Below are positions 7,452-50,841 of a DNA stretch of 53,646 nt, piece after piece; within the stretch, counting starts at the first letter, position 1; the number at the start of each line of letters is the position of its first letter. The DNA comes from Nitrospirota bacterium (lineage in GTDB: Bacteria; Nitrospirota; Thermodesulfovibrionia; UBA6902). Location: the NCBI GenBank assembly GCA_016222905.1, contig JACRPZ010000053.1, forward strand, positions 1-53,646. Reading direction: 5' to 3'. The notes beneath the pieces were generated by a model that made no database searches, was not told the origin of the DNA, and saw only the letters and a program-made list of their open reading frames with translations. The position numbers were made by a program, and so were the translations under genes.

Positions 7452-7458
7452 ATAGTTT

Positions 7459-8004: not shown

Positions 8005-8085
8005 GCAACGCTCCGGCCAAGCAGGAATTTATCCTTAATCAGTATGATGTTATAGTTTAATTTCTAAAGCGAATCTTTAATAACT

Positions 8086-8120: not shown

Positions 8121-8146
8121 CAAGCTTATATATCTTTCCTGTTAAT

Positions 8147-30705: not shown

Positions 30706-31074
30706 GTGCTATCTGCCCTTATTGTTGATGATTCAGAGACTACAAGGTCATTTATAAGATCGCTGGTTGAGGATGTGGCAGAGATTGATGTGCTGGAAGC
30801 CTCTTCCGGATTTGAGGCATTCAGGGTGCTGCCAGCGCACTCTATTGATATAATCTTTGTTGATATTAATATGCCGGATATCAACGGCATTGAGCTTATT
30901 AATTTCCTGAAGACTAATGATCTATACAAAAAGATACCCGTTATTATCATATCAACAGAACGAAGCAAGGAAGATATGTCAAAGGGCATGGCCCTGGGCG
31001 CGTTTGCATATTTAACAAAGCCTGTTAATCCTGATGAGCTTCGTGAAATTACCAAAAAAGCTTTGAACCTATGA
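30706..31074 (+). CDS. cheY: CheY-like response regulator
   Basis: This is a 122-residue single receiver domain. The acidic pocket is Asp8-Asp9, the phosphoacceptor is Asp53 in FVDINMPDING, the switch residue is in IISTERS near 81-87, and the conserved Lys is in YLTKPV (Lys105). GTG start follows aggagg by four bases. As the first gene of the operon it is the likely phosphorylation target of CheA. The last four bases overlap the cheA start. Confidence 0.92.
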   Translation: MLSALIVDDSETTRSFIRSLVEDVAEIDVLEASSGFEAFRVLPAHSIDIIFVDINMPDINGIELINFLKTNDLYKKIPVIIISTERSKEDMSKGMALGAFAYLTKPVNPDELREITKKALNL

Positions 31075-33059
31075 AACCTTCAAAGAAAGACTTCATTGCC
31101 GAGGCTGAAGAGATTATAGAAGAGTTAGGCTCTTTAGTACTGGAGCTTCAGGAGGAATTCAGCCCTGAGACTCTGAACTCTGTCTTTCGCTCGGTACATA
31201 CGATGAAGGGGCTTTCCGGGCTTTTCGGAATAAAGGAAGTAACAGACCTAAGCCACTCTCTTGAATCCCTGCTTGATGACCTGCGGCTTGGCAAGATTGA
31301 GATTACAGGCGAGATCATTGATTTTATCCTTTCTAACATAGACATACTGAAAAACCTCATAGACCAGGTTGCAGAGGATCACGATATAGATGATGTAAGC
31401 AATGATGTCAGGGAGATTGAAAAGTTCAGGGGGGTGGCTGGAGCCAAAGAAAAGGAATCTTCCCTTTCAACTACAGGTATAAGCGAGTCAATACTGAAGG
31501 TGCTGTCAGAGTATGAAGAGCACCGTCTCAAGGCTAATCTCGGTGATGGCCATGGAATATACCTGCTGAAGACAGTTTTCTCACTTTCTGATTTTGCCCC
31601 TCAGCTTGAAGAGTTGATTAAAAGGCTGAAAGATACAGGGGAACTTATCGCAACACTTCCTACATCCCAAGGGGTTCCTGACGGCTCTATCGGTTTCAAT
31701 CTGCTCTTGGGCGCCTCCTATCCGCTTGAAAATATCAAAAGCAGAACTCTCTTGTCCGATGTTGAGCAGTTGATCTCTCCGAAATTATCTCAGGCAGTTA
31801 CGCCGGAATCCAAAACTTCAAAGGCTAAAGAGACATCATTAAAGAGTGCGGCAACCACTGTCAGGGTAAATATAGATAAACTTGACGGTATTTTGAATAC
31901 CATTAACGAGCTTATGCTTTTAAGAAGCGCTCTGGTCAGGATAAGTCAGGAATTGACAGAGTCGTATGGTTATGCACCACTGGCTGTTGACCTGTACAAG
32001 ATTTCACAGAGCATTGATGTAAAGCTCAGACATCTTCAGCATAGCGTTCTGGATCTGAGGATGGTGCCTTTCAGTCATATATTCAAGAAACTTGCGCAGG
32101 TTGTAAGGAGATATACGCGTGAAGCCGGCAAGGAGATTAACCTGAATATATTCGGAGAGGACACGGAAATTGACAAGCAGATAGCAGAGGAGATAATAGA
32201 CCCGCTTGTTCATCTTGTGAGGAACTCGATTGATCACGGCATTGAATCAAAGAATGAAAGAACAGCGCTCGGGAAAGATCCGCAGGGCAATCTGACGCTT
32301 AAGGCTTTTTCAAGAGGTAACAGCGTTGTTATTGAGATTCAGGATGACGGAGCAGGCATTGACCCTGACAAGGTTCTGCAAAAGGCTGTTGAGAAGAAGA
32401 TAATCTCAAAAGAACAGGTCCTCGACCGCAATGAGATTATTAACCTCATCTTTGCCCCAGGCTTAAGCACCAAGGACGGAGTAAGCGAGATATCCGGCAG
32501 GGGCGTAGGCATGGATATTGTCAAGGAGAAGATCACATCTCTGGGCGGTTTTGTCGGCATTGAGACAGAGAAGGGCGCGGGTTCCAAATTCATACTCACC
32601 CTTCCAATCACGCTCGCTATTGTTAAAGCGCTTATAACAGAGGTATCAAAAAGACGTTTTGCTGTTCCTTTAACCTCAATAGAGGAGACATTTATCTTTA
32701 CCAAAGAGAGTGTTCAGACCATTGAAGGGAGAGAGGTGATTGAATTACGGAATGAGATGCTGCCTCTTCTTAGGACATCTGAAGCCTTTGATCTTGAAGA
32801 AGACGTAAGGGATGAATATTACGGTGTGGTTGTCGGCGTCGGGCAGAAACGCGTTGGGTTAGTTATGGACGAGCTTATTGAACAGACCGAGATCGTTATT
32901 AAACCGTTAGGCGAACACCTGAAGAATATCCCATGCATCTCAGGGGCTGCGGAGACAGGGAAGTATGAGATTGTATTTGTAATGGATATAGATGCAATGA
33001 TGGATGAGGCATTTTCAAAGAGAAAAAACAACGGCTCAAAGGGGAAAAAAGATGTATGA
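31071..33059 (+). CDS. cheA: Chemotaxis histidine kinase CheA
   Basis: This is 662 residues. The Hpt domain carries the phosphorylated His43 in SVHTMKGLSG. Residues about 130-250 form a spacer of unknown type in place of a clear CheY-binding P2. The dimerisation helices follow (INELMLLRSALVRISQ), then the ATPase domain with HLVRNSIDHGIES (N box), DDGAGIDP (G1) and GRGVGMDIV (G2). The C-terminal CheW-like domain starts near 520 (LPITLAIVKALITEV). All catalytic boxes are intact. It overlaps cheY by four bases and the AAA ATPase gene by eight. Confidence 0.96.
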   Translation: MKPSKKDFIAEAEEIIEELGSLVLELQEEFSPETLNSVFRSVHTMKGLSGLFGIKEVTDLSHSLESLLDDLRLGKIEITGEIIDFILSNIDILKNLIDQVAEDHDIDDVSNDVREIEKFRGVAGAKEKESSLSTTGISESILKVLSEYEEHRLKANLGDGHGIYLLKTVFSLSDFAPQLEELIKRLKDTGELIATLPTSQGVPDGSIGFNLLLGASYPLENIKSRTLLSDVEQLISPKLSQAVTPESKTSKAKETSLKSAATTVRVNIDKLDGILNTINELMLLRSALVRISQELTESYGYAPLAVDLYKISQSIDVKLRHLQHSVLDLRMVPFSHIFKKLAQVVRRYTREAGKEINLNIFGEDTEIDKQIAEEIIDPLVHLVRNSIDHGIESKNERTALGKDPQGNLTLKAFSRGNSVVIEIQDDGAGIDPDKVLQKAVEKKIISKEQVLDRNEIINLIFAPGLSTKDGVSEISGRGVGMDIVKEKITSLGGFVGIETEKGAGSKFILTLPITLAIVKALITEVSKRRFAVPLTSIEETFIFTKESVQTIEGREVIELRNEMLPLLRTSEAFDLEEDVRDEYYGVVVGVGQKRVGLVMDELIEQTEIVIKPLGEHLKNIPCISGAAETGKYEIVFVMDIDAMMDEAFSKRKNNGSKGKKDV

Positions 33060-33861
33060 GACTTACTACGGCTTAAACAGCAAGCCTTTCAGCAAAACTC
33101 CGGATCCCCGCTTCCTTTTTTACAGCAAAGCGCACGAAGAGGCTCTCGCGAGGCTTCAGCACGGGGTGGAGGAGAAAGAGATAATCCTTTTGACCGGTGA
33201 GGTCGGGTCAGGTAAAACAACTCTTTCACGCGCCCTGCTGGATTCTCTTGGAGAGAAGCACAGGGTCATACTCATCCTGAATCCCCGCCTTACCCCTGCG
33301 CAATTCATCAGAACGATAGCCAGAAGGTTTGATATTGACCATAACCAGCAAAAAGATGACCTGTTAGAGGCGATTCACGGAAAGGTTTATGAGGATTATA
33401 CAAAAGGCATTACGCCTGTAATAATAATAGACGAGGCTCAGCTTGTGCCGGACAGAAATACTTTTGAAGAGATCCGGCTTTTGACAAATTTTCAGCTTGA
33501 TGACCAGAACCTGCTTAGCCTTGTCCTGATCGGACAGCCCGATCTTTTGACAAGACTAAAGAGAAAGACTTATCTTCCGCTGCGGCAGCGCATAGGACTC
33601 TTTTATCACCTCTCGCCGCTTTCAGCCGAAGAGTCAAGACAGTATATTGAGCACAGGCTGAGACTTTCCGGCAGAACGGATACTATCTTCACTGAAGAGG
33701 CATTAGAATTAATATGCAAGTTTTCCGGGGGAGTCCCCAGAAATATTAATAACATTGCTTCCAATTCACTCATGGAGGGTTTTGGGAACGCAGCTCAATT
33801 GATAGATAAAGAGATTATTGCCGACATAGCGCATGAATTGGGAATGAACGGGGTAAAGTAG
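33052..33861 (+). CDS. ExeA/GspA-like AAA ATPase in the che operon
   Basis: This is 269 residues from ATG 33052; an earlier ATG at 33004 lies inside cheA in another frame. The opening YYGLNSKPFSKTPDPRFLF is the signature of ExeA/GspA-type AAA ATPases. Walker A is GEVGSGKTT at 49-57, Walker B is VIIIDEAQ near 122-130, and an Arg-rich sensor region follows. There is no peptidoglycan-binding or membrane segment, unlike full ExeA. Overlaps on both sides (8 bases with cheA, 1 base with cheW) place it firmly in the operon. Its role in chemosensory signalling is unknown. Confidence 0.88.
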   Translation: MYETYYGLNSKPFSKTPDPRFLFYSKAHEEALARLQHGVEEKEIILLTGEVGSGKTTLSRALLDSLGEKHRVILILNPRLTPAQFIRTIARRFDIDHNQQKDDLLEAIHGKVYEDYTKGITPVIIIDEAQLVPDRNTFEEIRLLTNFQLDDQNLLSLVLIGQPDLLTRLKRKTYLPLRQRIGLFYHLSPLSAEESRQYIEHRLRLSGRTDTIFTEEALELICKFSGGVPRNINNIASNSLMEGFGNAAQLIDKEIIADIAHELGMNGVK

Positions 33862-34517
33862 TGGATATATCAAAGATCAGGAAGATGTTAAAAGATACAA
33901 AGGCGGAAAATGGCGGAGAGGGCAAAGCAGAGATATTGGAGGACAAACCCGCGCCTGCCGTTGAGGATGAGGGCAGAGTAAAAAAAGAGGCTGTTGAGAT
34001 CAAAGTCCCTGAGATTGTTGAAAAGACAGAAATTGGTAAAATTGATACAATAACAGTCTCAGCAGAAGAAGAAAATGCAGTAACTGCTCCTGTAAAGGAA
34101 CTTGAGCTTCTGGCATTTAATGTTGCCAGCGAGGAATATGCTGTAAAATTATCGGATATGCAGGAAATTATCAGAAGCCAGACAATAACCCCGATACCGA
34201 GGTCCCCTGAATATTTAAAAGGGGTAACTTTTCTCAGGGGTCAAATCCTGCCTGTTATTGACCTTGGCAAGAGATTAGGTATTGAATGGGAGAGCGGGCT
34301 GCTCCAGAAGATCATAGTGCTTTCAGCTTCAAAAGCTCCCTTGGGGATTCTTATAGGCTCAGGCATTGACGTGCTGAGATGCCGGGAGAATGAAGTTTTA
34401 CCGCCGCCGTCAACATTAGATGAGATTGAGATAGGCCTTATTGAAGGCGTTGTTAATATCAAGAACAGATTTATATCAGTTTTAAATATAAATAACTTAT
34501 TGAAAGCGGAAAGATAA
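33861..34517 (+). CDS. cheW: CheW-domain adaptor protein with acidic N-terminal extension
   Basis: This is 218 residues. The first ~75 residues are charged and low in complexity, probably a flexible arm. A CheW domain follows ([21 protein letters not shown] onward is the start; [21 protein letters not shown] near 110-130; [12 protein letters not shown]). It would couple receptors to CheA. The GTG start shares one base with the ATPase stop, and the stop shares one base with the receptor start. The long arm sets it apart from the second, 160-residue CheW of the operon. Confidence 0.9.
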
Positions 34518-37378
34518 TGAACGCTAAACTTGAAGTTAAAATTGTCGGTCTCGTTATAATCGTACTGGTTATATCTTCTATCATGGCCGGTTTGTTGAGC
34601 ACGCGGTTTATCAGGGATGATATTGAAAACATTGTCTCCAAGTATTCAATGATGACCATGAGCTATATCAAAAATGTTGTTGAAGAGACAATGCTGGACG
34701 GCAATGTTGATGTAATGAAGGACATGCTGACTGAAAAGAGCAAGACCGAAGGGATTGAATATATCAAGATACTTGACACTTCAGGACGCGAAGCCCTCCC
34801 TTCCGTAAAAGAAAGCAATGTTGATGATGTGACAATTGTCAACCAGATCAGAAAGAATATGACTCAATCCGTTGTAAAAGAAGAAAATGCAATAATTTTT
34901 TATACTCCGTTAATAAAGACCAAGCGCTGCATTAAATGTCATGAAAGCCAGGAAACGCTGCTTGGCGTCATGAAGGTCTCCATATCAATCAAGGATGCCA
35001 AAGAGCAGATAATACACAGGAACAAGTTCGTTATCTTCAGCCTGCTGTTGGGAAGCATAATCTTTGGCCTGATCCTGTGGCTGATCTTCAGACAGACTGT
35101 ACTGAATCCTGTTCTCAAAATTGAAAACATGACAAAGAAACTCTCCATTGGCGACCTGTCTTTAAAGGACGATATTAAAACAAAAGATGAGATGGGCCGT
35201 TTGAGTAAAAACCTTATAAAGGCGGTCAAGGGTCTTGGAAACATTATTAACAGGGCAACAACCGTTTCAAAGAGGGTCGCCAACGTTACGTTTGAGATTG
35301 AGCATGAATCCAAGAAGGTTGCTGACGGAGCAAAGATGGAGCAGGAGGCAATTGATAATGTTCTGCAATCTGTAGAACGGTTTAATAAATCATTAGGGGA
35401 GATCGCTGAAATCATAAGGGACCTTTCCATATCAGCCGAGCACAGCGCAACAGGGATCAACGAGATGCGCTCCAGCACGGCTGTGATAAGCGACAATACC
35501 GCTGAACTGTTGGGCGCTGTTGATGCCACATCTTCAGCTATTCAGCAGATGACGGCAAGCATAAGAGAAGTTGCTGTCAAGTCAGGGGAGCTGTCCCTAT
35601 CCGCAGAAGGGGCTGTATCGGCCATTGCAGAGATCAATACATCAACAAAAGAGATAGCTTTAAACACTGCCGAGTCGGCAAAGCTTTCAGAAGAGATATC
35701 GTCTGATGCGTCAAAATTCGGGGTGGCTGCCGTTCAAAAGATTGCTGACGAGATGGAGACAATAAGAGTTACTGTTCAGAGGACATCCGAATTCATTGAT
35801 CATTTAAGCAAAAGGTCTGAGGATATAGGCAAAATCCTTAATGTAATAGATGAGATAACCGACCAGACAACTCTTCTGGCTCTAAACGCCGCTATTTTAG
35901 CCGCACAGGCTGGTGAGCATGGCAAAGGCTTTACCGTAGTTGCCGATCAAATCAAGGACCTTGCTGAAAAGACAGCGCTTTCTACAAAAGAAATAGGGGA
36001 GCTTATTGAAGCTGTCCAGTCAGAAGTAAGGTCGGTCTCTTCAGCCATATCAGATGGAATAAAAACTGTAGATGAAGGGTCCAAGCTGACAAGGGAAGCA
36101 AGCAGCAGTTTTAAGAAGATCACGAGCAGATTAAAGCGTTCATCTGAATTGACAATGACCATTGAGCGGGCTGCATCAGAACAGTCAAAAGGCCTCAGCT
36201 TTGTCGCTGAGGCGATGGAGACTGTGAAGAACAAGATATCAAGGATCGCCGCGAGCTCTGCCGAGCAGTCTGAGGGTGCGTCACAGATAGTCTCCTCAAC
36301 TGAAAAGATCTCGGATATAACCGCGAATGTCAAGGGTGCGATCCTGGAGCAGGCAAGGGAAGGGAAGAATCTCTTTGAAGCGGCGGAAGACCTTTCCGTG
36401 AAGACACAGGAGATAGCGGCTACCATCAAGGAGGCAAAATCCAACAGCGACAATATCCTCTCTTCCATAGAGAAGATAAGCGCTCTCCCTGCTGAGAACA
36501 GGAAGATCGTATCCGATATGAACATGAACATAAGAAAGCTTATGAAGGATGCCGAAGTTCTTACAGCGCAGATGGGAAGCTTTAAAATCTCGGATGAGAC
36601 TTATGATACGTCAACCATAAAAATGGGCATTATTCCTCTTGAATCGCCCGCGGAGATGTTTAAAAAATTTTTACCGTTGTCCCGCTATCTTTCAGAAAAA
36701 ATTAGCAAAGATATTGAACTCAAAGCTGAAGTTGATTATGAATCCACTATCAGAGATATAGGCGAAGGCGTTACGGGAATCTGTTATATGACTCCGTCTA
36801 CGTATATTAAGGCAAGGGAGCAATACGGCGTTGAGGTTCTGGTAAAGGCGTTAAAGAGCGGAAAGCCTTACCAGCGCATTGCCATTATCGCAAAAGAAGA
36901 GAGCGATATTAACAGCGTATCACAACTGAAGGGCGCCTCTTTTGCTTTTGGGGATATACTTTCAACAGCCAGTTATATTGTCCCTATGTCCATGCTCCAG
37001 GAAGAAGGTATTGCCCTTAAGGATCTTGACTTCTATGATTTTCTCGGACATCATGATGATGTTGCAAAGGCTGTCCTGAGGGGAGATTTTGACGCCGGCG
37101 GTGTGATGGAATCAACAGCCGAGAAGTTCAGGAGCAAGGGGATTAAGATACTGAAGTTCTCAGGCAACATGCCGGAGTTTAATATATGTGTTAATAAGGA
37201 TATAGCGCAGAACATTAAAGAGGAGATTAAGAAGGCGTTGCTGTCTCTTGACTATAAAAACCTTGATGACATGCAAGTGCTGCAGGCGATATCGCCACTC
37301 TACACAGGTTTTGCAGAGGCAGCGTATGAAGATTATGAAGAGATAAGGAGGTTAATGAATAGACTCGGTATTCTGTAA
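34517..37378 (+). CDS. Chemoreceptor with periplasmic CxxCH sensor and C-terminal PhnD-like domain
   Basis: This is a 953-residue protein. Order: TM1 (8-28); periplasmic sensor (29-168) with one c-type haem motif Cys138-Ile-Lys-Cys141-His142; TM2 (170-192); HAMP (193-245); signalling coiled coil with the tip [21 protein letters not shown] near 450-470; and from about residue 700 a PhnD-like type 2 periplasmic-binding fold ([43 protein letters not shown]). By topology the binding fold lies in the cytoplasm, which is unusual. The haem sensor resembles single-haem chemoreceptor domains known in Geobacter. It may sense redox state outside and an anion or phosphonate-like ligand inside; that is inference. 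The start overlaps cheW by one base. Confidence 0.9.
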
Positions 37379-37415: not shown

Positions 37416-39116
37416 ATGAAAAAGAGGATATCTTGTGCTGCAAAGACAGCCATCACATTATTTGTTGTCATGACAGGGATACAGGCGCTTGGACTGATTT
37501 TTTATTTCTCCTTCATTAGAGGCGGTTCGTCTGATAACATACTTCCTTTCATTCTGCTTTATCAGCTTTTTCTATTGATCGCTGTTATCTCCTCGGCGGT
37601 AATCCTTATTAATAAAAACATTGGAAAACCCTTAGCTGAAATAAAGAAATCCCTTGACAAGGCGGACAAAGGCGGGCTTACGTTACATATGGATAATGCC
37701 GGATGTCTTGAAATTGCGGGACTGAACGATTCAATCAACTCTTTGGCCGGGCAATTCAGAGAGATTATAGGGCAGTTCTTCTTAAACATCACAAACCTGA
37801 CAATGGAGCTCAGGCAGACAGAAAAGGTTATGCGCGGTATTCTTAAGGAGGTCAATACACAGCTCTCAGGGACGGAAGCCGTAATATTATCGTTCAGGGA
37901 CACTGATGAGCAGAAAAAGATGATTATAGAAACAACTCGGAATCTTTCCGAATTCTCCGAGGATAATGTTTCATCAATCACTGAGATAAACGCCTCAGTC
38001 AATGAGATCACGGACCGGACAAAAGAACTTTTCCGGTCATCAAACAGCGCGTACTTTGCAGTCGCTGAAATGTCGGAGGCTGCCAAAACTCTGAGTGTAA
38101 ATGCCGAGACCCTATCTGTCACGACCGAGCAGACCACTGCATCGGTTGAAGAAATGGCAGGGAATCTTAAAGAGATAGAGAAGGGCACAAGGGAGTCGGC
38201 AGATCTTACAGTCAAGTTAAGAGAACTTGCTTCAGGGGTAGGCATGATCAGCGTTGCCGACGCCATGGAAGGCATGGAGAGTATTGCAGTATCTGTTTCA
38301 AAAAGCCGTGATCTTATGAAAGGATTAAAGACAAAGTCCTTGGATATAGAGATGGTCATTTCCGTAATAGCTGACATAAATAAGAAGACCAATCTTTTAA
38401 GCCTAAATGCTGCAATTCTTGCGTCACAGGCCGGGGAGCATGGCAAGGGTTTTTCAGTAGTTGCGGATGAGATAAAGATGCTGGCGGACGAAACAGCGGC
38501 CTCTGCCAAAAACATAATAGCTATTATTGAAAGCACTCAGAAGGACATTGCCGCCGCATTGAAGGTCACTGAGGAGAGCCTTGAGATAGTGGATTCAGGC
38601 AATTCGCTTGTTGTGAATACAGGTGAGGCATTTAGAGAGGTGATAGATATTGCGCGAAGCTCTTCTGATACGGCCAGGAAGATTCAGCACGCAACAGAAG
38701 AGCAGGTTGCCGGGGTTACGCAGATAAGCAGGACAATGGAGTTGCTCTGGGGTATAGTTGACAATTTTGCAAAGGCCACTAACAGGCAGGAGAAGGGCTC
38801 TGAATCTCTCATGCATCTCTCGGAGGAGATCAAAAGAATATCCGAAGATATTAAAAGGGGAATGGAAGAGCAGAATAAGGGTATAAATATGATATCTAAA
38901 AATCTGGAATTAGAAAATGATAAGATCAGACATATTTCCGATGCCGCATCCAATCAGATGGGCGCTGATAAGGAACTGCTTCTCGGCATGGAGAATATAA
39001 AAAAGACGGGAAAAAACCTGCATAATGCTTCCGAGGAGATGAGGGCATCATTTAAAAGATGTCTTGAGGAGGCAGAGACCTTACTAAACAGAATGAAAGG
39101 TTTCGGTCTTGAGTAA
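37416..39116 (+). CDS. Methyl-accepting chemotaxis protein with minimal sensor
   Basis: This is 566 residues. Two membrane segments (about 11-34 and 42-65) are joined by a loop of only some eight residues, so there is no periplasmic sensor. A HAMP-like stretch follows directly and then the signalling coiled coil, with the tip [22 protein letters not shown] near 325-346. It may sense membrane or cytoplasmic cues, or act as a helper in mixed arrays with the haem receptor next to it. The last 8 bases overlap the second cheW. Confidence 0.92.
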   Translation: MKKRISCAAKTAITLFVVMTGIQALGLIFYFSFIRGGSSDNILPFILLYQLFLLIAVISSAVILINKNIGKPLAEIKKSLDKADKGGLTLHMDNAGCLEIAGLNDSINSLAGQFREIIGQFFLNITNLTMELRQTEKVMRGILKEVNTQLSGTEAVILSFRDTDEQKKMIIETTRNLSEFSEDNVSSITEINASVNEITDRTKELFRSSNSAYFAVAEMSEAAKTLSVNAETLSVTTEQTTASVEEMAGNLKEIEKGTRESADLTVKLRELASGVGMISVADAMEGMESIAVSVSKSRDLMKGLKTKSLDIEMVISVIADINKKTNLLSLNAAILASQAGEHGKGFSVVADEIKMLADETAASAKNIIAIIESTQKDIAAALKVTEESLEIVDSGNSLVVNTGEAFREVIDIARSSSDTARKIQHATEEQVAGVTQISRTMELLWGIVDNFAKATNRQEKGSESLMHLSEEIKRISEDIKRGMEEQNKGINMISKNLELENDKIRHISDAASNQMGADKELLLGMENIKKTGKNLHNASEEMRASFKRCLEEAETLLNRMKGFGLE

Positions 39117-39591
39117 ATATCTGGTTTTCAGCATCGCTGGAGAAGAGTGCGGGATTGAACTGAGTAAGGTTTCAGAGATTATAAGACCTCAAAAGACGAC
39201 CCCCTTTCCCGGTGTTCCAAAATATATTAACGGAATTATCAATCTGAGGGGCGTTGTAATGCCCCTGATGGATCTGCGGAAGCGCCTCGGCGTTAAGTCT
39301 TTTCCCAGGAAAGAAAGGATCATTATTGTTTCCATTCATAATGAAAAGATAGGACTGATAGTTGATTCCGTGAATGAGATAACGAATATTGATGATAATA
39401 ATATTGCCTCGCCGCCCGCAATCTTCAGGGGCATTAAACCGGAATATCTCAGGGGAATCGGCAAGATATCGGAAAGACTTATTATTCTTCTGAATCTTGA
39501 TAATTTATTGACCTCCGAAGAGATATTATTGATTGGAGACATAAGCGAGGCAGGCCAGCTTGAGGAAAAAGGAGGTAATGAGGCTGACTAA
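39109..39591 (+). CDS. cheW: CheW adaptor protein (second copy)
   Basis: This is a 160-residue plain CheW: YLVFSIAGEECGIELSKVSEI, TPFPGVPKYINGIINLRG, VVMPLMDLRKRLG and GLIVDSVNEI all match the family. It starts at TTG (39109) inside the receptor gene and ends 14 bases inside the HEAT-repeat gene. Two CheW proteins of different length suggest two receptor-coupling modes. Confidence 0.93.
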   Translation: MSKYLVFSIAGEECGIELSKVSEIIRPQKTTPFPGVPKYINGIINLRGVVMPLMDLRKRLGVKSFPRKERIIIVSIHNEKIGLIVDSVNEITNIDDNNIASPPAIFRGIKPEYLRGIGKISERLIILLNLDNLLTSEEILLIGDISEAGQLEEKGGNEAD

Positions 39592-41590
39592 TAAAAATAC
39601 GAAAATTACAAAAGAGTTAAAGATCAAGGAACTGCTTAAGAGCAGGGAAGTTGAGGTCAGGAGAGACGCGGTATACAGCCTTAAAAAACTAAAAGACAAG
39701 GCGTTGACGGTAAATCTGCTTATTCAATGCTTTCAGGACATAGACTGGAGGGTCAGGAAGAGCGCAACAGATATTCTCATAGGAATAAAAGATCTATCAG
39801 TTATAAAGAAACTGATAGATACGTTATACAGCGAAAACGCAAACACGAGAAATTCCGCGATAGAGGTGTTAACTGCATTCGGCTCTGATGCCATTGACAG
39901 CCTTACCGATGGGTTTAAGGCTGCCAATCCGGATGTAAAGAAATTCATAATAGACATAATCGGCAACATAAGGGACGCAAGGGTAACGCAGTTTCTATTA
40001 AAGGAAATTTTTGACAAAGCCAATGATGATAATGTCAAAGCAGCAGCCATAGAGCATCTTAGTAAAATAAAGAGCAAGGATGTTGTTGATAACCTCCTCT
40101 CTGTTCTGAAAGGCGATGACCTCTTTCTCTGTTACTATGCCATTAATGCGCTTGGAAAGATTGGCGATGATAGATCCATAAGCGCGCTTATTTCCGCTCT
40201 TCCCAGGAAAGAACTGCGAAAACCCGCAATCAAAGCTCTTGGGCAGATAGCCGGCAATGTCTCGCTCTCTTCGATAACTCCGTTTTTGAAGGATGAGTCA
40301 AAGGGCGTATGCGAAGAGACGATTGTTGCCATAGAGAATTTCCACATAAATGGCCTTCCTGAAGAAGTAATTGTAACCGAAATAAAAAAATCTGCCGGAG
40401 ATGATGCTTTGAATATATTGTTGCCGTTTGCAGATAGCCACAAAAAAGAGGTTAAAAAGGCCGCTATTCTCCTTCTCTGTCTCTTGAAAGAAAAGAGCGC
40501 AATCTCTGCAATTCTTGAGATCTCTTCAGAGATGGAGCCACAGAAAAATATTATCCGGGCGCTTGTTTATATCGGGAAAGCGATTCCGGATGCCCTGATG
40601 CCTTATTTAAGTTCCGGCGATGTTTATCAAAGAAGAATATTATGTGATGTAGCCGGAAGAACAGGTTTGCCGGTATTTTTCAAACCTCTCGTAAAGATGC
40701 TCAAAGATAAGGACAGCCACTCAAGGGCAAAAGCCGCACAGGCCCTCTCAATCATAGGCAATATAGAAGCAGCAAAATATATAAAAACGCTGCTTTCAGA
40801 TGAGTATGAAGATATTCAGGAATCTGCTATTGCGGCTATGGCGGTCTTAAAGGACGGGGTTGATATTAGCGAGTTAATCGGGTTACTGTCTGATAAAAAC
40901 CCGGTTCTTAGAAGAAGTTCAGCCAAACTGCTTGGTCTGATCGGCGAGAAAAAAGCTGTTGAGCCGCTCGGGGTTGCGCTTAAGGATAGTGACCTCAGGG
41001 TCAGAAATGCTGTAATTGACGCGATCGGCGCTATTGACGGGAAGGAGGTCCTGAAATATCTTCTCCTCGCGCTTACAGACGAACACTTTGATGTCCGCAG
41101 GTCTGCTGCAATAGCGATCAGCAGAATGAAGACAAAAAAAGCCTTTGAGGCGCTTCTTCTGCTTCTTCGTGACACAGATGTATGGGTCCGGGCGACTGCC
41201 GTAAAAGGGTTGGGGCAGACCAAACATAACACAGCCGTTAAACATCTGATAGCTGCTTTGAATGATAAATCCGGAATAGTGCGGAATGCCGCCATAGAGG
41301 CGCTTGCCGGCTTCAGAGAAAAGAGGGTTAAAAACGCGCTTCTTCTTCTCCTGAAGGATAAAGATCCGGAGATACGGAGCACGACTGTCAATTCTTTAGC
41401 TGTGTTTGAAGGGGTGGCAAAGGACCTGCTGCCGGTTTTAAAGGACAAAGATTGGGCTGTAAGGAAGCAGGTTGTTGACGTTCTTGGAAAATTTTTCAGG
41501 GATGAAAGCTCTTCATATCTGCAGGAGGCCGCTGATACTGACAGCGACCCTGAAGTAAGAAAGGCTGCGGAAAGGTATTTCAGTGTTTGA
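39578..41590 (+). CDS. HEAT-repeat scaffold protein in the che operon
   Basis: This is about 670 residues made almost entirely of HEAT/PBS-lyase-type helical repeats of ~31 residues (for example DWRVRKSATDILIGIKD, NPVLRRSSAKLLGLIGEKKA, DVWVRATAVKGLGQTK). Roughly twenty repeats can be counted. There is no catalytic motif or signal peptide. The start chosen is ATG 39578 just after aaaggagg, although spacing is only two bases; TTG 39560 is an alternative. The gene overlaps cheW and cheR. HEAT proteins also occur in some myxobacterial chemosensory clusters, as I recall, and probably scaffold array or output proteins. Confidence 0.88.
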   Translation: MRLTNKNTKITKELKIKELLKSREVEVRRDAVYSLKKLKDKALTVNLLIQCFQDIDWRVRKSATDILIGIKDLSVIKKLIDTLYSENANTRNSAIEVLTAFGSDAIDSLTDGFKAANPDVKKFIIDIIGNIRDARVTQFLLKEIFDKANDDNVKAAAIEHLSKIKSKDVVDNLLSVLKGDDLFLCYYAINALGKIGDDRSISALISALPRKELRKPAIKALGQIAGNVSLSSITPFLKDESKGVCEETIVAIENFHINGLPEEVIVTEIKKSAGDDALNILLPFADSHKKEVKKAAILLLCLLKEKSAISAILEISSEMEPQKNIIRALVYIGKAIPDALMPYLSSGDVYQRRILCDVAGRTGLPVFFKPLVKMLKDKDSHSRAKAAQALSIIGNIEAAKYIKTLLSDEYEDIQESAIAAMAVLKDGVDISELIGLLSDKNPVLRRSSAKLLGLIGEKKAVEPLGVALKDSDLRVRNAVIDAIGAIDGKEVLKYLLLALTDEHFDVRRSAAIAISRMKTKKAFEALLLLLRDTDVWVRATAVKGLGQTKHNTAVKHLIAALNDKSGIVRNAAIEALAGFREKRVKNALLLLLKDKDPEIRSTTVNSLAVFEGVAKDLLPVLKDKDWAVRKQVVDVLGKFFRDESSSYLQEAADTDSDPEVRKAAERYFSV

Positions 41591-42443
41591 GGAAGAGATC
41601 ATCCCGCTTTCTGAAGACGCCTTCCGGTTGATAAGAGATTATCTTTCGGATTACTGCGGCCTTTATTTTGACGAAAAGTCAAAACCCATCTTCGAGCGCA
41701 GGCTCAACAGACGCCTGAAGCTTAATCATTTAAAAGATTTCAGGGAATACTACCGTCTCCTCTTGTATGATCTAAAGCGTGACGAAGAGCTTCAGGCCAT
41801 TGTAGATATCCTTACCGTCAATGAGACTTACTTCTTCAGGGGAGAAGCCCAGATGGCAGCATTTCGAGACGAGATACTTCCTGAAATCAAGGAAAAGAAT
41901 AAAGGCACCAGGACCATCAACATATGGTCTGCGCCATGCTCCACAGGGGAAGAGCCGTACACCCTTGCAATGCTTATCCTTGAAGACGGCGGCTTTTCAG
42001 GTTGGGATATCAATATACTTGGAAGCGACATAAGCCAGAGAGTCATCACATCAGCAAGAAGAGGGATTTATAAGGAGACCTCTTTCCGGGCCACTGAAGA
42101 ATACTTCCTGAAAAAATACTTCAAAAATGAAGATGGCGGAGGGACGCGAATCGCGGATGTTGCCAAAAACCTGGTGAATCTTAATCTTTTGAATCTCTTT
42201 GATTCCTATAAAACAAGACTTGTTAATCCAATGGACGTTATTTTCTGCCGTAATCTGCTGATATATTTCAGTCAGACAGCAAGGGAGAAGGTCGTGACAA
42301 ATCTTTATAATTCGCTTAAAGAAGGTGGTTATCTTTTGTTAGGCGCTTCAGAATCACTGATGAATATAACCACACTGTTTAAGTTAAAACATTTAAAGAA
42401 TGACATCGTTTATCAAAAACCGGTGAGGTTTAGAAAGATATAG
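41583..42443 (+). CDS. cheR: Chemotaxis protein methyltransferase CheR
   Basis: This is 286 residues. It methylates receptor glutamates with AdoMet. The N-terminal helical domain opens FRLIRDYLSDYCGLYFDEK. The Rossmann part has VNETYFFRG near 80-88, INIWSAPCSTGEEPYTLAM near 115-133 (AdoMet site) and PMDVIFCRNLLIYFS near 217-231. The GTG start overlaps the HEAT gene by eight bases. The receptors encoded upstream are its likely targets. Confidence 0.95.
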   Translation: MFEEEIIPLSEDAFRLIRDYLSDYCGLYFDEKSKPIFERRLNRRLKLNHLKDFREYYRLLLYDLKRDEELQAIVDILTVNETYFFRGEAQMAAFRDEILPEIKEKNKGTRTINIWSAPCSTGEEPYTLAMLILEDGGFSGWDINILGSDISQRVITSARRGIYKETSFRATEEYFLKKYFKNEDGGGTRIADVAKNLVNLNLLNLFDSYKTRLVNPMDVIFCRNLLIYFSQTAREKVVTNLYNSLKEGGYLLLGASESLMNITTLFKLKHLKNDIVYQKPVRFRKI

Positions 42444-42456
42444 GGTATTAATAAAC

Positions 42457-43518
42457 ATGAAAAGGAACAGATTGCCGTTAAAAGTACTGATTGTTGACGA
42501 TTCAGCATTCAGCCGTCAGACAATCAAAACGATCCTGGAAAAATCGCCTGATATAGAGGTTGTCGGCATTGCATTTGACGGCAAGGACGGAATTAATAAG
42601 ATTCTAAGGCTGAAACCTGATGCCGTCTCTCTGGACATTGAGATGCCGGGGATGAGCGGTTTTGCGCTTTTGCAATGGATAATGAAGGAAAATCCCATAC
42701 CGGTGATAGTTGTCAGCGCGCATAAAGATGATTCAACGGTATTTAAGGCGCTGGAACTTGGCGCTGTAGATTTTATCAGCAAGCCTACAGGCCTGGCTTC
42801 CCGTGAACTGGAGAGCATAGAAGAAGATGTTCTGAAAAAATTTTCATCATTGGCGTATCTCAGGATGGATAAGATTCAAGGTAATATATCATTACTGGAA
42901 AGAGAAAAAACAGAGAGCAATTACTGTAAAATTAAGAATAGCAAGGTTGAAATAATCGCCATAGGCGCATCTACGGGCGGGCCAACGGCGATCCAGTCCA
43001 TAGTTACTCAGCTTCCCGAAGATCTTCCGGTGTCGGTAATTATCAGCCAGCATATGCCTGCGGGATTTACAAAGCAGTTTACCGAAAGATTGGACAAAAT
43101 CTCGGCAGTAAGCGTGAAGGAGGCAGAGGACAGTGAACCTTTAAGGAAAGGGCACGTCTTTGTTTGCCCGGGCGATCATCATTTCATGCTCCACAAATCA
43201 TGGTCCAGGACCCTTGTGCATCTGAAAAAATCTGTTCCCGGAGATCACTATGTCCCATCCATTGATACTATGATGAAGAGCGCAGCCAAACATTTCGGGA
43301 CCAAAGTAATGGGGATAATTTTGACAGGCATGGGTAATGACGGCAAGGCAGGCATGAGGGAGATAAAAGCGGCAGGAGGGATCACAATAGCCGAGTCTGA
43401 AGTGAGCGCTGTCATATATGGAATGCCGAGGGAGGTAATTCTTGCTGGAGATGCCGATAAGATATTGAGCCTTGAAGATATTCCGGCAGAGATTATCAGA
43501 TCTCTTGACAGAGAGTAA
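42457..43518 (+). CDS. cheB: Chemotaxis response regulator glutamate methylesterase CheB
   Basis: This is 353 residues. The receiver domain (1-125) has the acidic VDD pocket and phosphoacceptor Asp in AVSLDIEMPGMSG. The esterase domain (from about 165) has the catalytic Ser in IGASTGGPT, His in ISQHMPAGF and Asp in LTGMGNDG. It removes methyl groups added by CheR. It closes the operon; the convergent rlmN ends 20 bases beyond, with no clear hairpin between them. No cheC, cheD, cheX or cheZ is present, so a CheY phosphatase is not apparent. Confidence 0.95.
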   Translation: MKRNRLPLKVLIVDDSAFSRQTIKTILEKSPDIEVVGIAFDGKDGINKILRLKPDAVSLDIEMPGMSGFALLQWIMKENPIPVIVVSAHKDDSTVFKALELGAVDFISKPTGLASRELESIEEDVLKKFSSLAYLRMDKIQGNISLLEREKTESNYCKIKNSKVEIIAIGASTGGPTAIQSIVTQLPEDLPVSVIISQHMPAGFTKQFTERLDKISAVSVKEAEDSEPLRKGHVFVCPGDHHFMLHKSWSRTLVHLKKSVPGDHYVPSIDTMMKSAAKHFGTKVMGIILTGMGNDGKAGMREIKAAGGITIAESEVSAVIYGMPREVILAGDADKILSLEDIPAEIIRSLDRE

Positions 43519-45912: not shown

Positions 45913-45973
45913 TGTAAAACGGTAAACCTTTAATTATTGATTGGAGGAATACATTGAACTGGTTACACTCCCG
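45913..45973 (+). repeat. 61-bp identical leader, copy 1
   Basis: It begins tgtaaaacggtaaac and ends in the seventh codon of the first transglutaminase-like gene. It includes the ggagg ribosome binding site and TTG start. It is identical base for base to 50781-50841, although the coding sequences diverge right after it. Confidence 0.9.
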
Positions 45974-48900
45974 TATTTTTAAAGTCGTCTCAATTGTTGT
46001 TCTTGCCTTTTTTACATGGTCATCGGGTGGAATGTTTGAAATTGCTCACGCAATTTCAAACAGTTCGGAGTCGGGAGTTAAGAGTTCAGAGTTAAAGAAA
46101 GAAAAGGCAGAGGAGAAATTACAGAAGACGCTGGAAGAGATAGAACAAATAGTAGAAGAAGTACAGCAGAGCAAGAGCGCGGAAGAGCAGAAGTCTAACA
46201 AAGAGAAACTCAAAACTAAGAAGACGGAAATATGGAATATTGATGTTGAGATAAAGAAGCAGTTTAAAGAGACAGAAGATAAGATAAAAGACCTGCCGGG
46301 AGAAATACTGCAAAGGCATAAGGATTTTGTAAAGCATTATGATGATAATCTGAAAGAACTTAATGCGGATCTTGATGCGATAGACAAGGCAAAGACCGAA
46401 GCTGAGACAAACGCAAAGATAGAGAAGACAAAGGCATTTCTTGAAAAAGTAAAACCACCTAAGAAGCATACCCCGTTAGACCCAAATAATTTACCTCATA
46501 GGACAGCAGAACCGGAATGGATAGAGCCGAGAACGAGGCCGGAGCAATTCATCGAGGAATTGAGCGCAGAAGCGCAGAAGAGCAATAGCGAAAAAGCATT
46601 CCCCACTTTAGCAAAGGGGGGCAAGGGGGGATTTGATAAACCAATTCTTGTTGCATCGAATGGCTCTTTAAAGGGAATCCTATCTAATAATTCAAACTAT
46701 ACCTCCAATGCTGTCATTCCGGCAGGTCTTAAGCCGGAATCCCGTTCCTTTAGAAAAGGTTCTGGATACCCGATAGAGACGTTCGGGTATGACAAAGAAA
46801 GCATAGGTACTTCCGCATCTTCAAACTTATTACTTGCACTTGCAACTCCTCCGATTTCTGCTGATCTTGCACAAACTATAGAAGTTCAGTTCACGCCTGA
46901 AATAACAGCAAAAGCCGAAGAACTGCAACACAATCCTGTAAAAATCTACAACTATGTTAGAAACAACATAGAATTTGTTCCAACCTATGGCTCAATTCAA
47001 GGGGCCAATATGTGCTTACAGACAAAACTCTGCAATGCCTTTGATACATCAAGTCTTTTAATTGCATTGCTCCGTGCCTCAAATATCCCTGCCAAATATG
47101 TTCAAGGAACAGTGGAGATTCCTATAGAGAAAGTCAAAAATTGGGTTGGGAACTTTATTGATTCCAATTCGGCATTATCCTTCATTGCATCTGGAGGAAT
47201 ACCGGTCGGCGGGATTACAGAAGGCGGACAGATAAAATATGTCCAGATGGAGCATGTGTGGGTTGAGGCATATGTGCCTTACGGCCCTTATTCTGGAAGA
47301 CCCTCTAAACTTAACGTTCCAAAAACATGGATACCGTTAGACAGCAACTTCAAACAATACCATTATTCTGAAGGCGTTAACCTTCAAACCGAGGTTCCTT
47401 TTGATGCGGAGGCATTCATTAATCAGATACAGTCAACGGCAACAATCAATGAACCGGAAAGCTATGTAACCAATGTAGACGCCAACTACATTCAAACAAC
47501 CTTGACCGATTATCAAGCCCAGATTCAGAGCTATATCAATCAGAATATGCCCAACGCAATCGTGGGAGATATTCTTGGAAAGAAGGAAATCATAAAACAA
47601 GAATTAGGAATCCTGCCTGCTACCCTTCCCTACAAGACGGTTGTTACAGGAATAAAATATTCAGAGATTCCAGACAGCTTAAGGCATAAGATTACATTCG
47701 GCGTGTCATTGAATCATCTTTTATATGAAGCAAGTCCATTAACAGTAACCAAGTCTTTGCCGGAACTTGCAGGCAAAAAAATAACTCTCAATTATTCTCC
47801 AGCGACAGCATCGGATGAATCTGTAATTAACAAGTATCTTCCAAAACCTCATGCAGATGGAACACCAATAGATCCATCAGAATTACCTACATCATTACCC
47901 GCATATCTTATCAATGTTAAACCGGAATTGAGAGTTGATGGGTTGGTAATTGCAACGGGCGGTTCACTTACGATGGGACTCACAGAAAATTTTACAATGT
48001 CATTTTCTTACCCTAAGCAATCAAAAAAAGTAATTTCTAATCTGATCGAGGCTGGCGAATATTTAGGGATCGCGCTTGACCTTGGAAGAATATCTAAGGA
48101 ACAGATGACGGCATTAAAAACAAAACTTGAAGCAACAAAAGCAAAACTTGAAGCAAAAGATTTTACCAACATCACCAAGGATGACATACTCGGCGATCTT
48201 CTTTACACAACAGCACTTTCATATTTTGCTGAACTTGATGCAATGAATTATATGCAAGCAAAGACGATGGGAGTAAATATAATAAGACTTCCTTCAGAAA
48301 ACATATTTTCCTTTGAACTGGCTGTGGCAACATCTTTTTACGATATACCTATATCAGTAAGCGCCGGTGGATTAGCAATGGATGTTGATCATAACGTGCA
48401 TGTGGTAAAGGCACTAAATGGAGATAATGATAAAAAGAAGCAGTTTATGCTGGATTCTGGAATGAACTCATCTGCTTTAGAACATTCCGTTCCTGAGCAA
48501 ATATTCAGTACACCGGAAAACCCAGCGCAGGGGATTTCAGCATTGAAAGCCTTAAAGATAGCTAATGATCAAGGAATACCGATTTATACCATCAACAAGA
48601 CAAATATCAATACAATCCTTCCTCAATTGCAAATAGATGCAGATGCTAAGTCTGATATTCGTAACGCAGTTAATGCGGGTAAAGAGGTAACTGTTTCAAA
48701 GACAAATATATCATTCAATGGTTGGAATGGATGTGGATATATAGTCATTGATCCTGTTACTGGTGCAGGGGCTTACATGATTAGCGGGGGGATGAATGGG
48801 GCACTAATAATTATAGCAATTATTACAATTTGTTTAATGTACGCATTATTGCCTGCAATAATAGAGGGTGGCGTTATATCTCTTTTCGGCATCTCCTTTA

Positions 48901-49121
48901 TTGGCGGAGGAACAGTAACCGAAGCTTTTTTGGCATCAGCTATTTTAATTGTAACGCAATTATTTTTTGTGCTTATGATAAATAAAGACTTCAGCGCATG
49001 GCTTCAAGAGGAATGTAATAATATCTCCATTTTCTTTTCGCAAATTATTAGAGGGACGATTGGTCAAAATAATCCTTTGGCGCTTCTTGTGAAACTATTA
49101 GGGCAACTTTGTGATGGATAA
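45954..49121 (+). CDS. Secreted transglutaminase-like protein with C-terminal membrane module
   Basis: This is 1055 residues from TTG 45954 (ggagg eight bases upstream). It has a signal peptide (about 1-33, cleavage after AHA), then coiled coil (about 40-170) and a Pro-rich hinge (PPKKHTPLDPNNLPHRTAEP). A transglutaminase-type core follows with Cys360 in KLCNAFDTSS, His434 in EHVWVEAYV and Asp463 in WIPLDSNFK: a full triad. The beta-rich middle extends to about 900. IVIDPVTGAGAYMISGG (about 928-944) then leads into two hydrophobic segments (about 946-972 and 980-1003) and a short tail. Repeats are read in frame near residues 39-48, 217-229 and 254-280. The tail differs from its paralogue at 50.8 kb. 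Confidence 0.82.
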   Translation: MNWLHSRIFKVVSIVVLAFFTWSSGGMFEIAHAISNSSESGVKSSELKKEKAEEKLQKTLEEIEQIVEEVQQSKSAEEQKSNKEKLKTKKTEIWNIDVEIKKQFKETEDKIKDLPGEILQRHKDFVKHYDDNLKELNADLDAIDKAKTEAETNAKIEKTKAFLEKVKPPKKHTPLDPNNLPHRTAEPEWIEPRTRPEQFIEELSAEAQKSNSEKAFPTLAKGGKGGFDKPILVASNGSLKGILSNNSNYTSNAVIPAGLKPESRSFRKGSGYPIETFGYDKESIGTSASSNLLLALATPPISADLAQTIEVQFTPEITAKAEELQHNPVKIYNYVRNNIEFVPTYGSIQGANMCLQTKLCNAFDTSSLLIALLRASNIPAKYVQGTVEIPIEKVKNWVGNFIDSNSALSFIASGGIPVGGITEGGQIKYVQMEHVWVEAYVPYGPYSGRPSKLNVPKTWIPLDSNFKQYHYSEGVNLQTEVPFDAEAFINQIQSTATINEPESYVTNVDANYIQTTLTDYQAQIQSYINQNMPNAIVGDILGKKEIIKQELGILPATLPYKTVVTGIKYSEIPDSLRHKITFGVSLNHLLYEASPLTVTKSLPELAGKKITLNYSPATASDESVINKYLPKPHADGTPIDPSELPTSLPAYLINVKPELRVDGLVIATGGSLTMGLTENFTMSFSYPKQSKKVISNLIEAGEYLGIALDLGRISKEQMTALKTKLEATKAKLEAKDFTNITKDDILGDLLYTTALSYFAELDAMNYMQAKTMGVNIIRLPSENIFSFELAVATSFYDIPISVSAGGLAMDVDHNVHVVKALNGDNDKKKQFMLDSGMNSSALEHSVPEQIFSTPENPAQGISALKALKIANDQGIPIYTINKTNINTILPQLQIDADAKSDIRNAVNAGKEVTVSKTNISFNGWNGCGYIVIDPVTGAGAYMISGGMNGALIIIAIITICLMYALLPAIIEGGVISLFGISFIGGGTVTEAFLASAILIVTQLFFVLMINKDFSAWLQEECNNISIFFSQIIRGTIGQNNPLALLVKLLGQLCDG
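46600..46641. repeat. G-rich repeat read in frame in the first transglutaminase-like gene
   Basis: The unit ccccactttagcaaagg followed by gggcaagggg encodes FPTLAKGGKGGFDKP. The same unit lies at 51509-51549 in the paralogue. Similar C/G-rich units occur between genes at about 17796-17850. Confidence 0.75.
46713..46793. repeat. Palindromic repeat read in frame in the first transglutaminase-like gene
   Basis: It starts gtcattccggcagg and ends gttcgggtatgac, so its ends are inverted (gtcattcc/gggtatgac); inner arms include ccggc/gccgg and ataccc/gggtat. An intergenic relative lies at 25424-25446. It encodes AVIPAGLKPESRS and SGYPIETFGYDKES. Confidence 0.8.
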
Positions 49122-49144
49122 TTTATATAAGGAGAATAAAAGTC

Positions 49145-49603
49145 GTGAAAAAAGGATGTGATTTCTGGACATCAGAAAATATTTCAACTTTTCTCATAAC
49201 GTATTGGTTGATATATTCTTTGTTTTATCTAATGGCCATATTTCTTACCATGTTTATAAAAAATCCTTTTGCATTTTTAATTATTGGGTTTATCCCTTGT
49301 CCACTAATTTGGATATACAGGGCTATTCATAATCCTTACTACAACCTCGAAGAGTGCATCAAAACATATGATATGGAGTTTTATGAATCGTTTTTAGATC
49401 GTCTAACATCCATTAAGCATCCCCAAAAAAGGACAGCTTTCTTAGTGTTAGAACTAATAAACTCTTATAAAAAAATTAAAGACCAAAAAATTATTACGTT
49501 TGCAAAAAATATACGAAGGGTAAATCAGACTGGAACAATAGGATTTTCCATATGGTTTTTAACATTCATGTTTTTTGTGTTTTTTATGTTTGCAATAAGG
49601 TAA
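49145..49603 (+). CDS. Small membrane protein, candidate immunity partner
   Basis: This is 152 residues from GTG 49145 with aaggag upstream. Three hydrophobic segments are visible: about 17-38, 42-60 and 130-150. The middle part is charged and helical (FYESFLDRLTSIKHPQKR). I recognise no family. It starts 23 bases after the first transglutaminase-like gene, whose C-terminus is a membrane module, so it could be an immunity or assembly partner of that protein. The paralogue at 50.8 kb is truncated and has no such follower in the window. Confidence 0.7.
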   Translation: MKKGCDFWTSENISTFLITYWLIYSLFYLMAIFLTMFIKNPFAFLIIGFIPCPLIWIYRAIHNPYYNLEECIKTYDMEFYESFLDRLTSIKHPQKRTAFLVLELINSYKKIKDQKIITFAKNIRRVNQTGTIGFSIWFLTFMFFVFFMFAIR

Positions 49604-49648
49604 AAAAAGCAAGAATCTAAAATGGCTTCATAAATTCAATAATAGCCG

Positions 49649-49677
49649 TTGACACATATGATTAACCAAAGCATAAA
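49649..49677 (+). promoter_or_regulatory. Possible promoter before the toroid-repeat gene
   Basis: TTGACA (49649-49654) and CATAAA (49672-49677) are 17 bases apart. The start codon at 49690 would lie only some six bases after the transcription start, so the transcript would be nearly leaderless. Confidence 0.4.
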
Positions 49678-49689
49678 ATGGTGATTATC

Positions 49690-50706
49690 ATGAGAAGGAA
49701 TTATATTTTTTTTATCGCTGTCTTTGTTTTGATGCTGTTGTACGGCGTAACTTTCGCTCAGACATTGCCTATAACCAACGGCCTTGCTTATCTTCAATCT
49801 ACACAATCTCCTGAAGGCTATTGGGGCGATGCTGCGGAAGTTCCTTATAATGCCGTTGTTGATACTTGTACTGTAGTTGAAACCCTGAACTATCTCAATG
49901 AGACAGGGGCAGAATATAACACAGCCATCCAATGGATTAATACAACAGAAGTTTCTAATAACGATTACCTCTTTACAAAGATGTTGGTCTTGTCTCAGGC
50001 AGGGATTGATGTATCAACAATCAAAGATTATTTGCTGGGGATAAAAAACGATGATATCGGATGGGGTGTAACAGAAGGATTTACAAGCGATGTTAAGAGA
50101 ACCGCCCTTGCACTTCAAGCTCTCCGAGTAGTCAACTATCCTGATCAAAATTTAATCTATTCTGCAATCAACTATCTTAAAAGCAATCAGAACGCTGATG
50201 GCGGATGGGGACTAAAAAATGGGATGGACAGTGAAGTTTATTATACCGCCTTAGCTATCATTACCTTTTCAAAATTCAAAGCAACCTACGATTTACAGAC
50301 AGAGATAAACAAAGCTGTTTCCTATCTATTTGCTCATCAAAATCCAGTCGGCAGTTTCGGAGAAGGCACGGTATACGAAACGGCTTTATCTTTCATCGCG
50401 TTAATAGAAAGCGGTGCAGTAGGCGCAGAGAACTATACACTTTTACAAAACACAATCGCTTACTTGACCTCAACCCAACTCCCCAACGGTTCATGGAACG
50501 ACGACCCGTATTCAACCGCCCTTGCTTTAAGGGCATTGTATATTGCTTCAAGCGAACAAACTCAGCCGACGGATACGGCCGGGAGCGGTTCTTTAGAGAA
50601 AATCACCCGATCTTATAGCTGCCCGACCCCAAAAATACATAAAAACCCTGATAGAAAATACGTATTTTTACGGATTGTTTTTTTAGCGGGGAACTGTTAT
50701 GGTTAA
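49690..50706 (+). CDS. Exported alpha/alpha-toroid (prenyltransferase/squalene-cyclase-type) repeat protein
   Basis: This is about 338 residues from ATG 49690 (49678 is an alternative). A signal peptide (about 1-25, ending TFAQT) precedes QW-type repeats: YLQSTQSPEGYWGD, YLKSNQNADGGWG, YLFAHQNPVGSFGEG and YLTSTQLPNGSWND, each followed by a TALALxAL helix. This is the fold of terpene cyclases and complement/alpha2-macroglobulin TED domains. No DxDD cyclase motif is seen, so it is probably a binding domain. The final ~45 residues (GSGSLEKITRSYSCPTP onward) do not fit and may be a shifted or joined tail. It lies between the two transglutaminase-like paralogues. Confidence 0.78.
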   Translation: MRRNYIFFIAVFVLMLLYGVTFAQTLPITNGLAYLQSTQSPEGYWGDAAEVPYNAVVDTCTVVETLNYLNETGAEYNTAIQWINTTEVSNNDYLFTKMLVLSQAGIDVSTIKDYLLGIKNDDIGWGVTEGFTSDVKRTALALQALRVVNYPDQNLIYSAINYLKSNQNADGGWGLKNGMDSEVYYTALAIITFSKFKATYDLQTEINKAVSYLFAHQNPVGSFGEGTVYETALSFIALIESGAVGAENYTLLQNTIAYLTSTQLPNGSWNDDPYSTALALRALYIASSEQTQPTDTAGSGSLEKITRSYSCPTPKIHKNPDRKYVFLRIVFLAGNCYG

Positions 50707-50780
50707 CGGCGTACTGATAAGTGTCCATGTATGACTTATTTTGGACATCTGTGATTGTGACACAATACTTTTTGGCTTGG

Positions 50781-50841
50781 TGTAAAACGGTAAACCTTTA
50801 ATTATTGATTGGAGGAATACATTGAACTGGTTACACTCCCG
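50781..50841 (+). repeat. 61-bp identical leader, copy 2
   Basis: This is the exact copy of 45913-45973. It includes the ribosome binding site and first seven codons of the second transglutaminase-like gene. The upstream flank (to 50780) is unrelated to that of copy 1. Confidence 0.9.

Follow-up and report, generated by a model that had tools for sequence, protein, structure and literature searches.

The window analysed here, a 53,646-nucleotide stretch of a Nitrospirota genome, contains a chemosensory (che) gene cluster on its forward (+) strand. By Pfam assignment it comprises a CheY-type response regulator (30706..31074), a CheA kinase (31071..33059), two CheW proteins (33861..34517 and 39109..39591), a CheR methyltransferase (41583..42443) and a CheB methylesterase (42457..43518), to which are added two further conserved cluster members, an ExeA-like AAA_22 ATPase (33004..33861, true start possibly 33052) and a 676-residue HEAT-repeat protein (39560..41590; Pfam and cluster comparison). 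Two MCP-type chemoreceptor genes lie between the cheW genes. The downstream one (37416..39116; Pfam and cluster comparison) has no binding domain. The upstream one (34517..37378; ORF and Pfam), whose ATG start shares the last base of the preceding cheW stop codon, encodes a 953-residue MCP-PBP receptor, which is our subject here. Across Nitrospirota the conserved order is CheY-CheA-AAA-CheW-[MCP-PBP]-MCP-CheW-HEAT-CheR-CheB-CheY, with members occasionally missing, and the AAA_22 ATPase and HEAT protein are near-constant members of this cluster.

From its N-terminus, the receptor is predicted to consist of a first membrane segment (TM1, residues 9-27; 34541..34597; Kyte-Doolittle mean 2.94 over 19 residues), a periplasmic sensor (residues 30-168; 34604..35020), a second membrane segment assigned by hydrophobicity (TM2, residues 172-190; 35030..35086), a HAMP domain (about residues 191-245; 35087..35251), an MCP signalling hairpin with its tip near E467 (residues 246-689; 35252..36583; from Pfam and arm lengths), a short hydrophilic linker with neither membrane segment nor signal peptide (residues 690-698; 36584..36610) and a two-lobed binding domain of the PhnD/PtxB type (residues 699-953; 36611..37375; from PF12974, a PDB search and a model). 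The sensor scores 32.9 bits against PF21563 (Mcp40H-20_sensor; cut-off 27), with the match covering residues 51-158. A first-pass annotation of this DNA had described a CxxCH motif between two membrane segments, followed by HAMP and the signalling coiled coil, and the analysis bears this out, for HAMP with a sub-threshold match: a CIKCH motif at residues 138-142 lies between segments 9-27 and 172-190, HAMP scores 23.6 bits, just below the cut-off of 25 that most scanned relatives exceed, and MCPsignal (PF00015) matches residues 418-571 with E=1.2e-40. The MCP tip is itself conserved, with a mean top-residue frequency of 0.84 over region 431-510. The two hydrophobic segments are the only ones in the receptor. 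No membrane segment, which would have moved the C-terminal domain outside, was found after residue 190 of the window receptor, no consistent one was found across 63 related receptors, and no signal peptide precedes the binding domain. Since nothing past TM2 spans the membrane, the binding domain is placed in the cytoplasm, in agreement with the earlier annotation; in this predicted topology residues 30-168 are outside and everything after residue 190 is inside.

The periplasmic region resembles a family of sensors that carry haem c. Its CIKCH motif (34928..34942, +) is invariant in 40 aligned haem-type sequences, and Met59 (34691..34693, +), at least 90% conserved among haem-type relatives, aligns with the helix Met of structure 3b47 and is a candidate distal haem ligand. 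Among solved structures the nearest is GSU0582 (3b47, E=0.022), followed by the sister entry 3b42 (E=0.3); as single-sequence E-values both are weak. In the alignment with 3b47 the CxxCH motifs coincide, and CxxCH, flanks and PF21563 agree. PF21563 and sCache_4 were matched, and PF11845 (DUF3365/Tll0287-like), the family-defining profile, was not among the matches at E up to 0.01. In a full-length model the sensor region is mixed alpha/beta. The window's genome encodes cytochrome c assembly proteins, so that covalent haem attachment is possible. The earlier suggestion that the outside input is redox fits a c-haem-type sensor family, and redox is favoured for GSU0935 of Geobacter, with Met60 as a switchable ligand (PMC8396549), but signalling members of the sCache_heme family have NO-sensor properties (PMC12889525), and this sensor family may therefore respond to NO as well as to redox.

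The fold of the C-terminal domain was approached by several routes that agree. The PhnD-like character first noted over about 250 C-terminal residues is borne out by a match of residues 703-940 to the full length of PF12974 (1-242/242, E=1.5e-52), which is well outside chance expectation. A sequence search of the PDB returned PtxB (5o2j, E=4.4e-30, on residues 697-952), and a 47-member domain profile searched against the PDB returned PtxB at 2e-50, then HtxB, ArrX, PhnD and AioX. AlphaFold, given the 47-member alignment, modelled the domain with a pLDDT of 95.7 and a pTM of 0.90, and both Foldseek and VIA-align placed PtxB first at a TM of about 0.85 (Z 31.2, rmsd 2.2 Å over 252 residues), the structural match that the annotation's reading calls for. 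In the full-length model, with a mean pLDDT of 69, the binding domain is the best part, mostly at 80-90. The modelled region is thus predicted to have the type 2 fold seen in PhnD and PtxB, with both lobes complete. It scores above the cut-off of TIGR01098 (130.2 bits, cut-off 112) and far below that of the PhnD equivalog TIGR03431 (115.5 bits, cut-off 261.1). Hallmarks of an ABC-type binding protein are absent, in that there is no signal peptide and the neighbours are che genes with no permease or ATPase of that type.

Placement of the binding domain in three dimensions differs from what a linear domain diagram suggests. The distance from E225 to N457 is 232 residues and that from N457 to F689 is again 232, identical in 63/63 receptors, and in all 63 the MCP hairpin is symmetric and antiparallel, without unbalanced gaps. 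The bend near Glu467 brings Phe689 level with approximately residue 245, the end of HAMP. Because the two antiparallel arms are equal, the binding domain sits close to HAMP and the membrane, and at 1.5 Å per residue some 330 Å of bundle separate it from the kinase tip. The first-pass annotation had put it beyond the kinase-control tip, which holds for the order along the chain and not for the folded receptor, where the hairpin returns the domain to the membrane. The stretch from Phe689 to Gly704, by comparison with the invariant arms, varies from 12 to 19 among receptors. MCPs fall into length classes, and an arm of about 222 residues, or 32 heptads, probably puts this receptor in the 64H class.

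We surveyed 396 genomes, all Nitrospirota, and found the fusion, counted where the match reached the end of the binding domain, in 86 of them at 34-52% identity. A scan of genome contigs, which finds close relatives only, returned only Nitrospirae, and a tblastn search against plasmids had ordinary phnD proteins among the matches listed. From the survey 63 distinct fusion receptors were extracted, the window copy included. The same domain order recurs with a CxxCH-type sensor in 45 of the 63 (window copy counted), as the annotation's reading would predict, and elsewhere the outside sensor is sCache_3_2, Cache_3-Cache_2, 4HB, an unassigned loop of approximately 110 residues, or almost nothing. 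In 6/63 receptors HAMP begins at residue 55-70, after a short loop between two hydrophobic segments, which leaves the inner domain as the one ligand domain that can be recognised in them. Traced on a tree built from the receptor core, sensor type changes at least 11 times across the 63 receptors. That sensor and inner domain evolve as a pair was considered and rejected, since the sensor changes this often while the inner domain stays. The 63 receptors were chosen for their inner domain, so its retention among them is by construction; an independent measure comes from the window's class, where 74 of the 78 genomes with the cluster's HEAT protein (found in 111/396 sampled genomes overall) have the fusion. 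The outside sensor is thus the variable part of this receptor and the inner binding domain the constant part. The idea of a two-input receptor, put forward in the earlier annotation, is supported in this form, with the haem sensor as an exchangeable input rather than a defining one.

The fusion is nearly always found inside this che cluster. In the four exceptions among the 78 genomes (G040, G199, G211 and G288; loci L068-L071), an MCP without the binding domain occupies the same slot, and two of them, G040 and G199, also have no dsrA. Extra fusion copies outside the cluster (L046, L052, L053 and L064) have mixed housekeeping neighbours and no consistent transporter or enzyme pattern. One of these loci (L053, 116-13768) packs two MCP-PBP genes together with two standalone PhnD-like proteins into 14 kb, with no phn-type transporter genes beside them.

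To consider what the inner domain could bind, we compared its pocket with that of PtxB, in which an STS motif and a His bind the ligand oxygens and Tyr208 and Asp22 form a cap (PMC5700983). The predicted oxyanion residues of the window receptor are S816, T817, A818 and H846. In the receptor alignment S816 is kept in 63/63, Ser (in most relatives) or Thr at position 818 in 62/63 and H846 in 60/63, with the window copy alone among the 63 in having Ala at 818. Oxyanion positions are conserved above random domain positions (p about 0.008), although this is a small set and modest evidence. The cap is different: relative to PtxB/PhnD, D22 is replaced by Leu708, Y208 by Phe888 and Y100 by Gln786, and the two hydrophobic cap positions are themselves conserved (Leu in 55/63 and Phe in 61/63). 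Of ten close pairs, nine give a binding-domain dN/dS of 0.05-0.22, and in the tenth saturated dS leaves the ratio undefined. The window's genome also encodes standalone PhnD-like proteins, which are 22-31% identical to the fused domain, have other pocket residues and start with the kind of hydrophobic stretch usual in signal peptides or lipoproteins; as a recent source of the domain they were rejected on the basis of that identity and those pocket residues. Because the motif is kept, the lid is changed and the standalone proteins are distant, the fused domains form, as far as their sequences tell, their own subfamily with a predicted oxyanion site and a different, hydrophobic lid. As a separate observation, cysteines at residues 756 (36782-36784) and 891 (37187-37189), absent from PtxB, are conserved in 52/63 and 50/63 receptors; these cysteines of the cytoplasmic domain could matter for ligand or redox.

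Taken together, the reading we hold to be reasonably probable is that the protein serves a conserved cluster as its core receptor, with a constant inner oxyanion domain, a variable outside sensor and type IV pili as the likely output. Domain order, fold, sequence-based topology, the fixed bundle geometry, the conservation of motif and cluster and the interchange of outside sensors are shown by the analysis, while ligand binding, haem attachment, the direction of signalling and pilus output are what we infer. In the proposed mechanism, the inner PhnD/PtxB-type domain would bind a tetrahedral oxyanion of small size or a metabolite that bears an oxyanion group, and the periplasmic covalent-haem Cache domain would read NO or the redox potential. 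As its two lobes open and close next to HAMP, the inner domain could bias the state of HAMP and the bundle, and this bias would in turn act on CheA at the distant tip, with CheR and CheB adapting the receptor. The way in which the C-terminal domain would signal to HAMP is proposed by analogy, and the full-length model is weak in the coupling region between them (pLDDT about 40-60). Phosphate is present at millimolar levels in the cytoplasm, and a high-affinity phosphate site would therefore always be full.

A more specific form of the favoured reading, whose likelihood is contained within it rather than added to it, is that the inner domain gauges dissimilatory sulfur metabolism by reading sulfite, thiosulfate or a similar sulfur oxyanion in the cytoplasm. 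We regard this as a tentative possibility. The gene dsrA occurs in 82/86 fusion genomes versus 12/28 of those that have the cluster but not the fusion (Fisher p=7e-9, or p=0.018 when only the class is counted), and the four fusion genomes without it are incomplete MAGs (74-93%). This co-occurrence is a weak hint of a sulfur oxyanion, but it is confounded by shared ancestry, and several dsrA-bearing lineages have the cluster without the fusion. Among homologues, ArrX, a close fold relative, was crystallised with sulfate, and PhnD-like domains have been proposed for tetrathionate in TtrS and led to a thiosulfate sensor kinase (PMC5408782), though the nearest sequence relatives bind phosphite. 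The fullest version, a two-compartment receptor in which the inner domain reads a sulfur oxyanion and an exchangeable sensor reads redox or NO, jointly steering type IV pili in non-flagellated Nitrospirota, we consider speculative and on present evidence doubtful.

Alternatively, the C-terminal domain could retain its fold without sensing any small molecule and act as a docking or scaffolding module (for methylation enzymes, AAA/HEAT partners or array localisation). Loss of the cap residues that give specificity and the Ala within the STS motif of the window copy are what such a module might show, and the domain co-occurs with the conserved AAA and HEAT genes. Yet few positions of the domain are as well conserved in the 63 receptors as the oxyanion-binding ones, receptors without an outside sensor retain it, and the four genomes with a domain-less receptor keep the AAA and HEAT genes, which together make docking unlikely. 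Less likely still is that the domain is a PtxB/PhnD-type sensor of phosphite or phosphonate that has only moved into the cytoplasm: PtxB is the best match in both sequence and fold, but its cap Asp and Tyr are replaced by Leu and Phe in nearly all members, PtxB with the Y208F substitution bound phosphite over 1000-fold less tightly, at 295 instead of 0.17 µM (PMC5700983), and phnC/phnE neighbours are absent. That the domain is outside the membrane after all, as PhnD-type domains normally are, or that the fusion is an assembly error is scarcely credible: neither a further membrane segment nor a signal peptide precedes the domain, and 86 genomes share the fusion, with its gene neighbours conserved.

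The likely output follows from what the window's genome encodes. At an estimated completeness of 100%, it has a complete che cluster (CheA, CheR, CheB and two CheW), and neither flagellin nor FlhA was found when it was searched for both, so the output is probably not flagellar. Three PilT-family ATPases score over the cut-off, and with flagellin and FlhA absent, type IV pili are likely to be the output in this genome. More broadly, FlhA is absent in 60/86 fusion genomes (29/39 at completeness 97% or more), and in the window's class it is absent in 51/76 fusion genomes versus 20/91 others (Fisher p=4e-9, not phylogeny-corrected). FlhA is present in the remaining 26/86, and a pilus output is therefore not proven.

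Compared with known systems, the receptor combines familiar parts in an unfamiliar place. Substrate-binding proteins are textbook extracytoplasmic parts. PtxB, PhnD and HtxB (PF12974) share the two-lobe fold and the STS...H motif with the receptor domain, at about 30% identity to PtxB, whereas the receptor domain is cytoplasmic, fused to an MCP, without signal peptide or ABC partner, and capped by Leu/Phe in place of Asp/Tyr. GSU0582 and GSU0935 of Geobacter sulfurreducens are likewise MCPs with a single-CxxCH Cache-type periplasmic sensor and a Met in the distal-ligand region (PMC8396549, PMC12889525), but they are described by their sensor domain and not by a C-terminal binding domain, and here the haem sensor is one interchangeable front end. 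The sensor kinases TtrS and ThsS also use a PF12974-type domain as a signalling input (PMC5408782), in their case in the periplasm and ahead of a histidine kinase, whereas here it follows an MCP domain inside the cell. According to a 2020 survey, chemoreceptors that carry their ligand domain at the C-terminus comprise at least 17 Pfam types and are poorly characterised; they include CZB chemoreceptors, whose ligand domain also comes after the MCP signalling domain (PMC7390727). CZB is a small zinc-binding domain, unlike the full two-lobe binding protein and fixed bundle length seen here. In Aer, a cytoplasmic PAS input domain lies next to HAMP; this PAS domain is N-terminal and flavin-based, its likeness to our receptor is by position only, and the coupling model is a proposed one. 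A full-text literature search found no paper linking PF12974 to a chemoreceptor. Since the C-terminal category is already known (PMC7390727), we call the PF12974 fusion an apparently new, conserved variant of it.

This arrangement, in which the inner domain is kept beside HAMP as the outside sensor is swapped or dropped, suggests the level of an internal metabolite as the main input, and in Nitrospirota with the fusion an internal chemical, together with outside conditions, may guide how the cells behave on surfaces. Relatives with a haem sensor, another sensor or none, and the few without the inner domain, provide a natural test of C-terminal sensing.

Other genes of the same genome may be recorded here. 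A 691-residue receptor on another contig (L011, G000:C86) is 30% identical to residues 19-692 and has no binding domain, and its contig also has a PilT gene (7452-8486). Within the window, about 26 kb from the cluster, a 711-residue MCP with HAMP and MCPsignal lies on the reverse strand (2218-4350, -), and its pre-HAMP residues have no Pfam match at the threshold applied. At the far end of the window (45954-53539) are two large transglutaminase-core proteins of 1055 and 905 residues, and between them a 342-residue protein that resembles the prenyltransferase/squalene-cyclase/TED toroid.
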